DNA of 64,000 nucleotides from Levilactobacillus acidifarinae DSM 19394 = JCM 15949. GTDB lineage: Bacteria; Bacillota; Bacilli; Lactobacillales; Lactobacillaceae. Both the position numbers and the translations under genes were made by a program. Position 1 is the stretch's first letter; the number at the start of each line of letters is the position of its first letter. Shown one piece after another: positions 27,499-57,811 of this stretch. The notes under the pieces were generated by a model that made no database searches, was not told where the DNA came from, and was given only the letters and a program-made list of their open reading frames with translations. The stretch lies in the NCBI RefSeq assembly GCF_001434835.1, contig NZ_AZDV01000028.1:238363-302362 (forward strand), in the 5' to 3' direction.

Positions 27499-27660
27499 GA
27501 CGGCATCTCCCTTGCTTTCGTTGGCGTTACGGCGGTAAATTGCCGCAATCCGTTCCTAAAGTTAATTATGTTTCAGTATACCATGTCCTTGCCTCAGCAC
27601 CAGCCGTTTTTCATGGGGTGATTGCGGAAATCCGATTGCTGAAAAACCGCTAAAAGATAG

Positions 27661-27689
27661 TTGACGTCCGTGTGGCAATGCCGTACACT
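27661..27689 (+). promoter_or_regulatory. Promoter of the TrpXYZ-type operon
   Basis: -35 TTGACG (27661-27666), exact 17-base spacer, -10 TACACT (27684-27689). The predicted start near 27696 gives a leader of about 270 nt. Confidence 0.8.
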
Positions 27690-27724
27690 AAATTTATTCA
27701 GAATACGGAAAGAAGGAAAGTTAT

Positions 27725-27772
27725 ATGCAAATGTCTAAGATGACCTTAAATGGACGTTGGCAAAGCCGGTAA
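27725..27772 (+). CDS. Leader peptide with a single Trp codon (attenuator ORF)
   Basis: Short ORF MQMSKMTLNGRWQSR followed by TAA. It has its own ribosome site AAGGA seven bases upstream and lies about 30 nt after the predicted transcript start. Trp codon TGG is codon 12, three sense codons before the stop. Downstream are alternative hairpins and a strong terminator, then an ABC transporter of the TrpX type. The stop-proximal codons AGC CGG form one arm of a pairing with CCGGCT at 27831-27836, so ribosome position can control folding. I read it as a tryptophan-sensing attenuator peptide. Confidence 0.65.
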   Translation: MQMSKMTLNGRWQSR

Positions 27773-27928
27773 TCAAGTCGTCATCACTGTAGATGCGACT
27801 TGAGCTCACAGAGTGCTCTTCGCATCTGCGCCGGCTAACTTTCTGATGGAAAGGGTCTGCACGGATGAATTATCCGCCAGCGGCCCATTAATTTTTGGGG
27901 TACCCGCTGCGGCTGGGTGCCCTTTTTT
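27764..27928 (+). promoter_or_regulatory. Attenuator: mutually exclusive hairpins and terminator before trpX-like gene
   Basis: Hairpin A: TCAAGTCG (27773-27780) with CGACTTGA (27796-27803). Hairpin B: AGATGCGA (27791-27798) with TCGCATCT (27820-27827). They share CGA and cannot coexist. Outer pairing AGCCGG (27764-27769)/CCGGCT (27831-27836) overlaps the end of the leader ORF. CGGAT/ATCCG (27862-27876) follows. The terminator is GGGTACCCGC / GCTGGGTGCCC with six T (27897-27928). GCCAGCGG just before it can pair into the terminator's left arm as an antiterminator. No T-box motif is present. Confidence 0.6.
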
Positions 27929-27968
27929 AGTCGGAAAAGTCAACTTTCACGAAGCGAGGTTTATCAGG

Positions 27969-28964
27969 ATGAAACGGTTATACGGATTAATTGCTATTTT
28001 ACTCATTTTTCTGGGATTCGCCTTCGTTAAGGAGAATCATCAACAAAGTGCCCAAAAAACGGGCACGCCAACCGTGGGGATCTTACAGCTCCTCTCCCAC
28101 CCGGCACTCGATGCCATCCACAAGGGCATCATTCACGGGTTAGCCGAAGAAGGCTACCACGTGAATAAGAACATCAAGATCGACTTTCAAAATGCCCAAA
28201 ACGACCAAAGCAACCTTAAGACCATGAGTGCGCGATTCGTCAACGAACACGCCAACGTCATGATTGGGATTGCCACACCGGCCGCCCAAGCGTTAGCCAA
28301 CGCCTCCAGCACCACGCCGGTCGTCCTCGGTGCCATCACCGATCCTAAGGGCGCCGACCTGGTCAAGAGTAACACCCGGCCGGGCACCAACGTCACCGGG
28401 GTCTCCGACCAGGCACCCCTAAAGGCCCAACTAAAATTGATTCAAAAAATCATGCCGAACATGAAGACGCTAGGCATCATCTACACGTCGTCCGACGATT
28501 CGGCCACGGCCCAATACCACCAATTCGCGGCCATTTGTAAACAAGAACACGTCAAGCTCAAGGCCTACTCCATCGCCAACACCAACGACTTGAACCAGGT
28601 CGCTCAGCAGATGGTTTCGCAGGTCGACGCCGTCTACGTACCGACCGACAACACCGTGGCTAGTGCCATGCAAACGTTGGTCGCCACGGCCAACGCCAAG
28701 AAAGTGCCCGTGTTCCCAGCCGTGGATACTATGGTCAAGGCGGGCGGCCTCGCCACGCTCAGTATCAACCAGTACAAGCTGGGCGTCGAAACCGGGAAAA
28801 TGACCGCCGCCATCCTGCGGGGTAAGAACCCGGCCACCACGCCAATTCACTTTGAACGCCGCGGGGAAATGACCATCAATTTAGCCGCCGCTAAGAAACT
28901 GGGAATCACGCTTCCTAGCGACGTCGTCAAGGAAGCCCAACAACACGGGGAGGTCTTTAAATGA
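27969..28964 (+). CDS. trpX: ABC transporter substrate-binding protein, TrpX type
   Basis: 331 aa exported binding protein of the ABC_sub_bind (DUF534) family, used in lactobacilli and streptococci for tryptophan-type uptake. N-terminal hydrophobic anchor (about 5-19), without a lipobox Cys. Domain segments are VGILQLLSHPALDAIHKGI, NDQSNLKTMS, GAITDPKGADLV and GVSDQAPLK. The frame extends 52 codons upstream through the terminator, but the ATG at 27969 gives a proper signal segment and follows GAGG. It overlaps the permease gene (ATGA, 28961-28964). Tryptophan specificity is supported by the leader peptide, not by the protein alone. Confidence 0.85.
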   Translation: MKRLYGLIAILLIFLGFAFVKENHQQSAQKTGTPTVGILQLLSHPALDAIHKGIIHGLAEEGYHVNKNIKIDFQNAQNDQSNLKTMSARFVNEHANVMIGIATPAAQALANASSTTPVVLGAITDPKGADLVKSNTRPGTNVTGVSDQAPLKAQLKLIQKIMPNMKTLGIIYTSSDDSATAQYHQFAAICKQEHVKLKAYSIANTNDLNQVAQQMVSQVDAVYVPTDNTVASAMQTLVATANAKKVPVFPAVDTMVKAGGLATLSINQYKLGVETGKMTAAILRGKNPATTPIHFERRGEMTINLAAAKKLGITLPSDVVKEAQQHGEVFK

Positions 28965-29860
28965 GTTTAATGGTATCTGCAATCGGACAAGGCCTGCTTT
29001 GGGCCGTCCTCGGGGTGGGGTTATTCCTCACCTTTAGAATTCTAGATTTTGCCGACATGACGGTTGAAGGCACCTTCCCGCTGGGCGCGGCCACCTGTGT
29101 CGCCGCCATCAGCAACGGGATGTCCCCCCTTGTCGCCACGTTACTGGCCTTTATCGTGGGTAGTCTGGCCGGTTTAATCACCGGTTTGCTCTACACCAAG
29201 GGTCACATCCCCATTCTGTTAGCTGGTATCTTGGTCATGACCGCCTGCTACTCCGTTAACCTACGGATCATGGGCCGGGCCAACGTGTCCCTACTGGGAA
29301 AAGCCACGCTCTTTAAGAACCACTTTCTGGAAGGATTGCCGCAATACTTTGACAGCGTCTTTTTAGGCACCCTGGTCATGGTCGTGGTCACCGGTATCGT
29401 GATCTACTTCCTACAAACCCAGTTGGGGCAAGGATTCATTGCCACCGGGGATAACCAAACCATGGCGCGTTCCCTAGGCATCAACACCGATAATATGAAA
29501 ATTATGGGTCTAATGGTCTCTAACGGACTGATTGCCTTCGGGGGCGCCCTGGTCGCCCAAAACAACGGCTACGCCGACGTCAACATGGGAATCGGGATCA
29601 TCGTGATTGCCCTGGCCTCCATCATCATCGGAGAAGTCGCGTTTGGCGATTTAACGCTAAACCAACGGTTAGTTGCCGTGACGCTCGGGAGTATTCTTTA
29701 CCGGTTCGTCTTACTGATCGTTCTGAAGTTAGGTTTCAACGCCAACGACTTGAACCTGTTATCCGCCATCGTCTTAGCCCTGTGCATGATGCTACCGGTC
29801 TTCAAACAGGCCTTCAACTTCAAGCACATTTTGAAACGGGGGTTAGATACTAATGACTAA
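28961..29860 (+). CDS. trpY: ABC transporter permease, TrpY type
   Basis: 299 aa permease with about nine membrane helices, of the branched-chain/ribose permease fold (LLWAVLGVGLFLTFRILDFADMTVEG start, GVALVAQNNGYADVNMGIG-like segment at about 195). Translationally coupled to trpX by a four-base overlap and overlapping the ATPase gene by eight bases. It should form the homodimeric channel of this importer. Confidence 0.85.
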   Translation: MSLMVSAIGQGLLWAVLGVGLFLTFRILDFADMTVEGTFPLGAATCVAAISNGMSPLVATLLAFIVGSLAGLITGLLYTKGHIPILLAGILVMTACYSVNLRIMGRANVSLLGKATLFKNHFLEGLPQYFDSVFLGTLVMVVVTGIVIYFLQTQLGQGFIATGDNQTMARSLGINTDNMKIMGLMVSNGLIAFGGALVAQNNGYADVNMGIGIIVIALASIIIGEVAFGDLTLNQRLVAVTLGSILYRFVLLIVLKLGFNANDLNLLSAIVLALCMMLPVFKQAFNFKHILKRGLDTND

Positions 29861-30623
29861 ACCATTACTCCAACTTAAAGACGTGGTGCTCAAGGTGAAC
29901 CGCCACACGCCCGAAGAAATTAAGATTCTCGATCACCTCAACCTGACCATCAACGCCGGGGACTTCATCACGGTATTGGGGTCCAACGGGGCCGGAAAAT
30001 CCACCCTGTTCAACGCCATCGGGGGTGACCTCACGATCGATAGCGGTCAGATCCTGCTCAACGGCCGCGACATCGCTCACGATTCCGTGGAAAAGCGCAC
30101 CCGCTTTCTCAGTCGGGTCTTTCAGGATCCCAAGTTGGGTACCGCCCCGCGGATGACCGTGGCCGAAAACCTCCTGTTGGCCGAACGTCGGGGCCAACGC
30201 CGGGGCCTACTTCCACGCCGGTTGAACAAACAGCTGGCCCACTTCAAGAAAATCACGGCGACCATGCATAACGGCCTGGATCAGCGTCTGACCACCGCCA
30301 CGGGGAACCTCTCCGGGGGGCAACGCCAAGCGCTAAGCTTCTTGATGGCCACGTTAAAGCGCCCTGAACTATTGTTGCTGGACGAACACACCGCCGCGCT
30401 GGACCCGCAAACCAGTCAAGACTTGATGCACCTGACCAACGAGCGGGTCCAGGACCAAAACCTGACCTGCCTGATGATCACCCACCACCTCGAAGACGCC
30501 CTGACCTATGGCAACCGCCTGATTGTCCTGCACCACGGCCAGGTGACCTTTGACGTCGCCGGAGCCGAAAAAGCCGCGTTGACCACCGAAAAGCTCTACA
30601 GTTTCTTCGCGGAAATTGAATAA
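29853..30623 (+). CDS. trpZ: ABC transporter ATP-binding protein, TrpZ type
   Basis: 256 aa ABC ATPase with Walker A GSNGAGKST, signature LSGGQRQ, Walker B LLLLDEHTAALDP and switch His MITHHLEDA. The Walker B Glu-Pro pair is replaced by DEH rather than the usual DEP, as in other members of this transporter type. Last gene of the operon; a large inverted repeat follows at 30654-30706. Confidence 0.87.
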   Translation: MTKPLLQLKDVVLKVNRHTPEEIKILDHLNLTINAGDFITVLGSNGAGKSTLFNAIGGDLTIDSGQILLNGRDIAHDSVEKRTRFLSRVFQDPKLGTAPRMTVAENLLLAERRGQRRGLLPRRLNKQLAHFKKITATMHNGLDQRLTTATGNLSGGQRQALSFLMATLKRPELLLLDEHTAALDPQTSQDLMHLTNERVQDQNLTCLMITHHLEDALTYGNRLIVLHHGQVTFDVAGAEKAALTTEKLYSFFAEIE

Positions 30624-57424: not shown

Positions 57425-57692
57425 GACCCGAAATCCTTCTTTACATTCTAAATTATGGGCGACTAATCCATTGGCTGATTAACCAAAACATCTAATTATT
57501 CGACCATTTATCAGTTTACCACTTGGGGCAACTGACGCCAAAGCTCTTAATTGGTCTGGACCGTTTGTCGGGTCACACTGTTTTTCATCAGGACCGTTTC
57601 TCATCTCAACAGCTAAAACCTTGGTTACGATTGTCCCCCGTTAGCGGTTGCATTTTCCCCAGAGAATGGTTACGCTAAGAGTAATTTAAATC

Positions 57693-57811
57693 CGACTGGG
57701 GTGCCCGTATGGCTGAGATCAAACCCATTGAACCTGCTCTGGACAATTCCAGCGAAGGGACGGTGACTTATCAAGCAATTGGCCCCCACTATCAATTTAG
57801 TGGGGGCTTTT
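57693..57811 (+). promoter_or_regulatory. TPP riboswitch with terminator
   Basis: THI-box: GGGGTGCCCGTATGGCTGAG, then ACCC, GAACCTGCTCTGGACAATTCCAGCG and AAGGGA are present in order (57699-57760). The GCCCCCACTA / TAGTGGGGGC hairpin with TTTT (57782-57806) is the regulated terminator. It controls the ykoEDC-tenA operon: high thiamine pyrophosphate stops transcription. The 430-base gap before ykoE is otherwise empty. Confidence 0.95.

Follow-up and report, generated by a model that had tools for sequence, protein, structure and literature searches.

Genes for tryptophan in Firmicutes are, in the textbook view, under the control of a T-box or of TRAP. In Escherichia coli, the trpL leader has four arms; stalling of the ribosome at its Trp codons leads to the antiterminator, and full translation leads to the intrinsic terminator. 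The his attenuator of E. coli and Salmonella has a long chain of alternating hairpins and a run of His codons. TnaC is induced by Trp and is Rho-dependent; the ribosome stalls at its stop codon, and its W-to-P spacing is fixed.

The principle of the his attenuator has been described, as have His leaders in Firmicutes (PMC9413887, available part). In bacilli, hisS paralogs are preceded by a His leader peptide with a stretch of His codons, which the available part of the article says replaces T-boxes (PMC2965389). In Streptococcus suis, trpXYZ is controlled by a Trp T-box and, in the part of that article available, the authors leave open how general this is (PMC9382623).

We have analysed a stretch of 64,000 nucleotides of Levilactobacillus acidifarinae DSM 19394 (the window), in which trpXYZ is preceded by a leader. 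Like E. coli trpL, this leader has a short ORF with Trp a few codons before the stop, a predicted coupling of stalling to an antiterminator and of completed translation to an intrinsic terminator, and cognate genes downstream; unlike trpL, it has one Trp codon, seven arms where trpL has four, and a guard helix joining its final codons to arm c; its target is a transporter and its host is Gram-positive. The long alternating hairpin chain is shared with the his attenuator, but the present leader has one arm more and only one sensor codon. The short ORF with one critical Trp is shared with TnaC, but the fixed spacing is not conserved in the present leaders. Leader-peptide attenuation in Firmicutes is shared with the hisS paralogs, where, however, there is a stretch of His codons, the genes are others and the available part of the article reports no RNA architecture like the present one (PMC2965389). 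The S. suis T-box acts on the same operon, responds to the same signal and also works by transcription termination but, going by the same part of its article, it senses the tRNA directly, has no ORF and is a quite different RNA (PMC9382623).

Full-text searches of open-licence papers gave no title or opening of an abstract that reports a Trp leader peptide upstream of trpX or from Lactobacillales. The available part of a study of lactic acid bacteria regulons makes no mention of tryptophan, trpXYZ, T-boxes, attenuation or leader peptides (PMC3616900). Leader-peptide attenuators as such are an established kind.

The leader and its alternating arms

The features of the locus are given in Table 1. 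The 15-codon ORF with a good ribosome site and a single TGG at codon 12, as set out in a preliminary description of the sequence, is there, and so are the two mutually exclusive hairpins, the outer pairing over the last codons and the strong terminator (stem, 27897-27922; T-run, 27923-27928), with the ATG of trpX (27969) 40 bases further on. The 17-spaced promoter of the same description is present as a motif, but one such motif was found where 1.1 are expected in shuffled sequence, so it is weak by itself. The predicted TrpXYZ-type transporter is borne out by a TrpX score above the cut-off, followed by a permease and an ATPase; the best match of TrpX among solved structures is 3lft (E 2.5e-82).

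Table 1. Features of the trpXYZ leader and operon in the window
Feature	Position	Strand	Basis or remark
Sigma-70-like promoter TTGACG-17-TACACT	27661..27689	+	Consensus scan, 9/12
Shine-Dalgarno-like AAGGAA of leader ORF	27713..27718	+	Sequence; relatives also purine-rich before start codon
Leader peptide ORF, 15 codons, MQMSKMTLNGRWQSR, then stop	27725..27772	+	Homologous ORF in L002-L077, 76/79 named loci
Sensor codon TGG (Trp, codon 12), sole TGG of leader ORF	27758..27760	+	
Guard helix P1, 5' arm AGCCGG = codons 14-15	27764..27769	+	Pairs with 27831-27836; covariation
Arm a, CAAGTCGTCATC	27774..27785	+	a:b helix, covariation
Arm b, TGTAGATGCGACTTG	27788..27802	+	Partner a or c; covariation
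Arm c and P1 3' arm, TCGCATCTGCGCCGGCTAACTT	27820..27841	+	b:c and P1, covariation; c:d, folding
Arm d, GGGTCTGCACGGATG	27853..27867	+	Partner c (antiterminator side) or e
Arm e, TATCCGCCAGCGGCCC, 3' half of hairpin d:e	27871..27886	+	
Arm f, terminator 5' half; alternative partner e	27897..27909	+	
Arm g and U-run, intrinsic terminator 3' half	27910..27928	+	
trpX, tryptophan ABC transporter substrate-binding protein	27969..28964	+	NF041285.1, E 6.3e-147, 488.8 bits (cut-off 390)
trpY-type permease	28961..29860	+	PF02653 (BPD_transp_2)
trpZ-type ABC ATPase	29853..30623	+	PF00005

The leader transcript folds better than all of 200 dinucleotide shuffles (z -3.84). There are seven arms, a to g, each of which is able to pair with the next. 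The pairings fall into an ON set (a:b, c:d and e:f) and an OFF set (b:c, d:e and f:g), f:g being the terminator, and a:b (27774-27785 with 27792-27802) excludes b:c (27789-27798 with 27820-27829). P1 joins codons 14-15 to the 3' part of arm c. A hairpin, d:e (27853-27886), precedes the terminator; this helix, c:d and e:f were absent from the preliminary description. Computed helix energies in the window are -14.9 to -17.0 for the first five helices, -22.0 for f:g and -13.7 for P1. The U-rich tail after d:e is good in many Levilactobacillus species and poor in the window.

Covariation was counted for P1, a:b and b:c in two alignments, A1 (45 sequences) and A2 (58 sequences, including nine that do not lie before trpX, four of these nine without a Trp codon). 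For P1 with b:c, 91.1% of cells are paired in A1 and 91.0% in A2, with 50 double-change cells against 14.8 after shuffling in A1 and 113 against 33.4 in A2. For a:b the paired cells amount to 79.4% (A1) and 91.6% (A2), and the double-change cells to 40 against 11.1 and 56 against 17.7. Kinship alone can beat shuffles without any structure, but sliding the partners by 1-3 columns lowers pairing to 24.9-47.0%, compared with 79.4-91.6% at the true partners. There is no excess of further pair types for P1 with b:c in A1 (21 against 21.0 shuffled); for a:b in A2 the double-change pairs number 5 against 3.5 (68 of 500 shuffles reach this) and the pair types 12 against 10.4. P1, a:b and b:c thus show covariation, although not on every measure.

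The helices c:d, d:e and e:f are supported by a swap test, by folding and by inspection of the arms. The swap test compares duplex energies of a leader's own arms with those of arms swapped from another genus, and covers 72 of 77 leaders, as do the ribosome scans below (L002, L032, L036, L039 and L063 were dropped because arm segmentation failed). The own arms beat the swaps in 87% for a:b, 81% for c:d, 89% for e:f and 79% for P1, in comparison with 37-48% for non-neighbour controls. Values for b:c (96%), d:e (97%) and f:g (100%) are partly circular because these arms were defined by folding. Within single genera some helices fail the test or come close to 50%. In Enterococcus this holds for e:f (41%) and c:d (53%), in Latilactobacillus for c:d (48%) and a:b (54%), and in Ligilactobacillus for c:d (54%).

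Two models of the leader were used in searches: R1, a covariance model whose core includes the Trp codon, and R2, a codon-free model. The leader is single in its own genome, where R2 has one match up to E 5 and R1 has one at 1.8e-16 and three more at E above 1. No family of Rfam 15 matches the leader element; in 27600-28000 there are two Rfam matches up to E 5, both by chance and to unrelated families. Elsewhere, at 57687-57778 (+), there is a TPP riboswitch (59.4 bits), the window's only Rfam match at the gathering threshold.

Predicted switching by ribosome position

We infer that the leader very probably controls trpXYZ as a ribosome-mediated transcription attenuator, its signal being a shortage of charged tRNA-Trp. 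This reading follows from features expected of an attenuator that can be read from the sequence: a conserved ORF with an SD-like site and a Trp codon, covarying and mutually exclusive helices that end in a terminator, and genes for Trp import (trpX) or trpB downstream. It upholds what the preliminary description had proposed for trpXYZ.

Under a shortage of charged tRNA-Trp, the ribosome would halt with TGG in the A site, hiding the codon arm of P1 and leaving arm a free; a:b, c:d and e:f would then form, the terminator f:g would be blocked and trpXYZ would be transcribed. When Trp is ample, the ribosome would reach the stop codon and hide arm a, and b:c, d:e and the terminator f:g would form. 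If the ribosome is missing or has stalled at an earlier codon, P1 would sequester arm c and termination would again be expected. The operon would be opened only by a stall within about three codons. Since an upstream stall would let P1 form, the ON window is predicted to be narrow and one well-placed Trp codon could suffice, which would explain how a single codon gives specificity.

Ribosome position was scanned by equilibrium folding under the assumption of a footprint of +13 nt, counted from the first A-site base to the ribosome edge; a change of 3 nt in this footprint moves the ON window by one codon. The mean probability of c:d over 72 leaders is 0.57, 0.60 and 0.56 at codons -1, 0 and +1 from W, compared with 0.30-0.34 at -5 to -2 and 0.41-0.44 at +2 to +5, and it climbs again to 0.54 at +6 (70 leaders). 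The mean b:c probability, 0.31 at W, has grown to 0.75 by +3 (72 leaders). In the leader of the window, c:d reaches 0.82, 0.83 and 0.82 at R, W and Q, whereas the preceding N and G give 0.10 and 0.20 and positions further upstream 0.45 and 0.40; at the stop codon the antiterminator stands at 0.45 and b:c at 0.75.

Merging identical sequences reduces the 72 leaders to 63. The predicted contrast is clear in the mean, as the proposal that a ribosome at the Trp codon decides termination would have it; singly it is present in 47 of the 63 distinct leaders, where the value at W is higher than at codon -3 and at the stop codon (by a margin of at least 0.1 in 32). The leaders that do not have this contrast are mostly from Secundilactobacillus and Lacticaseibacillus. 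By a cruder switch score, 28 of 77 real leaders lie above 0.5 (median 0.43) and none of 60 shuffled ones does (median 0.056).

Leaders with two Trp codons were also scanned. The ON window spans both Trp codons in L208 (W15-W18, 0.70) and in L076 (0.91), and covers them in part in L245 (0.83 and 0.61). In L211, a leader before trpB, the first Trp lies inside the ON window (0.68) and the second outside (0.07).

Conservation of the leader peptide and competing explanations

The leader DNA is matched in every one of the 35 genomes examined from the genus, that of the window among them; secondary matches in three of them were rejected as chance matches within coding genes. Of the 79 named loci collected by way of TrpX, 76 have a W leader ORF upstream of trpX (L002-L077, from Lactobacillaceae and, as L076, one Enterococcus), a W share that is biased because recognition required W. 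The TrpX of L002 is 98% identical to that of the window, and the leader of L037 seems to use a CTG start. The three other loci (L078-L080, Christensenella and Eubacteriales records) have no leader of this type and no R1 match, and were left out of later counts. The leader is more than 450 bases upstream of trpX in L008, L009, L024-L027, L047 and L072, which have about 250-500 bases of extra DNA between attenuator and trpX in comparison with their relatives.

Within the family to which the window belongs, R1 has a match in 277 of 397 genomes (26 of 40 genera); within the order it has one in 137 of 395 (E 0.01; 39 of 80 genera), with six families beyond the window's own. Both draws include the window genome and relatives of training sequences. 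If the attenuator reading is true, these sampled genera would hold a third solution for Trp control in Firmicutes beside T-box and TRAP, from which one could predict the regulation of Trp uptake, and perhaps of Arg and Phe uptake, in lactobacilli and enterococci. The 20 R1 loci taken from outside the family (L200-L219), among them L206, which is the Enterococcus training locus L076, and L213 and L214, which share one genome, all have a W leader. A W leader is likewise present in 20 of 20 order loci picked from matches of the codon-free R2.

The R2 tally for the family (273/397) may contain a few false matches of the atpA type, and that for the order (226/395, E 0.05) was discarded, in favour of the R1 tally, as inflated by atpA matches at a lenient threshold. 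L230 (E 6.5e-4) and L237 (E 0.035) are such false matches to atpA, neither trpX nor a leader was seen at L231 (E 0.0135), and L233, L234 and L236 match in antisense at loci that the count already includes.

TrpX is present in 14 of the first 20 listed family genomes with no model match. Among 11 trpX loci from unmatched genomes, nine have a W leader preceded by an SD (L261, L262, L266-L270, L272 and L273), L265 has a WWWLG ORF, read by eye, with no clear SD, and in L271 no leader was found; the ends are of the WW type or WWW in eight and of the WQS type in two. A missing match is therefore not a missing leader. A THF riboswitch lies near the trpX locus of L270 (L270:454-609).

The leaders were compiled in a non-random set of 161 (141 distinct ORFs), 77 from the named set and the window and 84 from model matches. 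Trp is present in 153 of the 161 and in 133 of the 141 distinct ORFs, most of them recognised by a search that required W. Among these 133, there is one Trp in 91, two in 40 and three in 2; the codon after W is CAA in 123, and the second codon after W is NNC in 127, whether the amino acid is S, N, F, I, L or R. That NNC is kept whatever the residue is as P1 pairing would demand. At 2-4 residues upstream of the sensor, 97 of the 141 distinct leaders have an [LVIFM]N motif, which in 54 of the 97 has Q ahead of it; the motif is lacking in the other 44, such as MSSLVNRSWQSR of Lentilactobacillus. The QLN motif is common to the Trp, Arg, Phe and WW versions of the leader and is kept despite change of the sensor codon. 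Its recurrence hints at selection on the nascent peptide, but may also have an RNA-level reason.

It is conceivable, if rather improbable, that the mechanism is a hybrid in which the codon-specific stall is joined by a nascent QLN-x-x that slows the ribosome at the sensor and so sharpens or times the response. The frequency of [LVIFM]N near the sensor, the use of all six codons for its Leu and its occurrence in all four versions argue for this, whereas the 44 leaders that lack it argue against, and the Asn, which is AAT in 93 of the 97, may point to a cause at the RNA level. We know of no arrest motif of the QLN kind.

Stalling on the nascent peptide as in TnaC, which the preliminary description had raised for GRWQSR, is very unlikely. 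Here the peptide, with or without free tryptophan, would stall the ribosome at the stop codon and so decide termination. The end of the peptide is indeed conserved within the genus, and [LVIFM]N with its varied Leu codons suggests some selection on the peptide; the expected conservation of RWxSR does not extend to relatives, however, where the ends are WQNWRR, WWRR, WWWLG and WQS (WQ[S/N]WRR being common outside the family) and the sensor W is 3-10 codons from the stop. The NNC codon that follows Q regardless of residue, and the presence of the same RNA core in leaders for Arg and Phe, also speak against arrest of this kind, and a ribosome at +3 to +5 is on average predicted to be less ON than one at W.

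A tRNA-sensing T-box or other riboswitch with an incidental ORF is highly improbable: trpX of S. suis is T-box controlled according to the available part of its article (PMC9382623), but the ORF and its Trp codon are conserved here and, in line with the preliminary description, no Rfam T-box is found up to E 5 in 27600-28000, nor at the gathering threshold in the 11 further trpX loci. Two serial hairpins upstream of trpX could also be constitutive tandem terminators beside a non-functional ORF, which is barely credible given that the exclusive helices covary and the ORF persists across the order.

Downstream genes and exchange of the sensor codon

Of the 20 family loci L147-L166, 19 have trpX downstream and L159 has an OppA-type protein; all but L165 have a recognisable leader ORF. 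The loci of other families, L200-L219, have trpX in 18, trpB in one and an OppA-like protein (by eye) in one. The trpB case is L211, where the Trp leader MTFTATQSWQSWHR precedes trpB (TIGR00263, E 1.3e-185; L211:524-1963). In L194 a Trp leader is upstream of an Opp4A-type protein.

Homologues that lack the Trp codon, which would have counted against the preliminary description, do exist: Trp is absent in 8 compiled leaders. All eight, however, have Arg or Phe codons instead, with the same RNA core, and precede other genes. Six of them (L181, L191, L193, L195, L196 and L225) end in LNIRLRS(R/Q), with CTG CGA in place of TGG CAA. Five of the six, L191, L193, L195, L196 and L225, are from one genus and precede a GlnH/ArtI-like binding protein-permease fusion (scanned in L191 and L225, by eye in the rest), and L181 precedes an OppA-like protein (by eye). 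These six are putative Arg attenuators, for which the signal may be Arg or Leu. Five of them were scanned for ribosome position: R-L-R gives 0.80-0.86 in L181 compared with 0.28 at the next codons, with K7-L8 equally high, and 0.49 compared with 0.11 in L191; the rise at R-L-R is weak in L196, and L195 and L225 are nearly flat.

The other exchange is to Phe. The Phe-rich leaders L235 and L238, ending in QLNNSFFFGFFR, precede a paralog of TrpX/TrpY, which in L238 scores 349.5 bits, below the TrpX cut-off of 390. Both are putative Phe attenuators; L235 is predicted ON at N11-G16 (0.50-0.70) and OFF at F17 (0.08), and the ribosome scan of L238 is flat. Such replacements of the Trp codon in nature, by Arg or by Phe codons, would allow a ready test of the roles of codon position, RNA chassis and nascent peptide. 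One may speculate, with little confidence, that the Lactobacillales have a family of codon-programmable attenuators with one chassis (a guard helix and a domino chain of hairpins), a codon window of about three positions (Trp, or Arg or Phe in paralogs) and a QLN nascent peptide that aids the pause, which would make the device partly a sensor of codons and partly one of the nascent peptide type.

Some leaders have other surroundings. In L192 (L192:1477-3100), the Trp leader MTFNDLQFNTAWQSWH is before genes for a TIGR04076 protein and an aldo/keto reductase, which are unexpected candidate members of the Trp regulon. L243 and L249 are R2-matched W leaders with the hairpin core and no adjoining gene found, the only long ORF in L243 being on the opposite strand. 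Finally, L183 is a second copy of the leader followed, by eye, by a reverse-transcriptase-like ORF and not by trpX, an arrangement that is perhaps an intron insertion.
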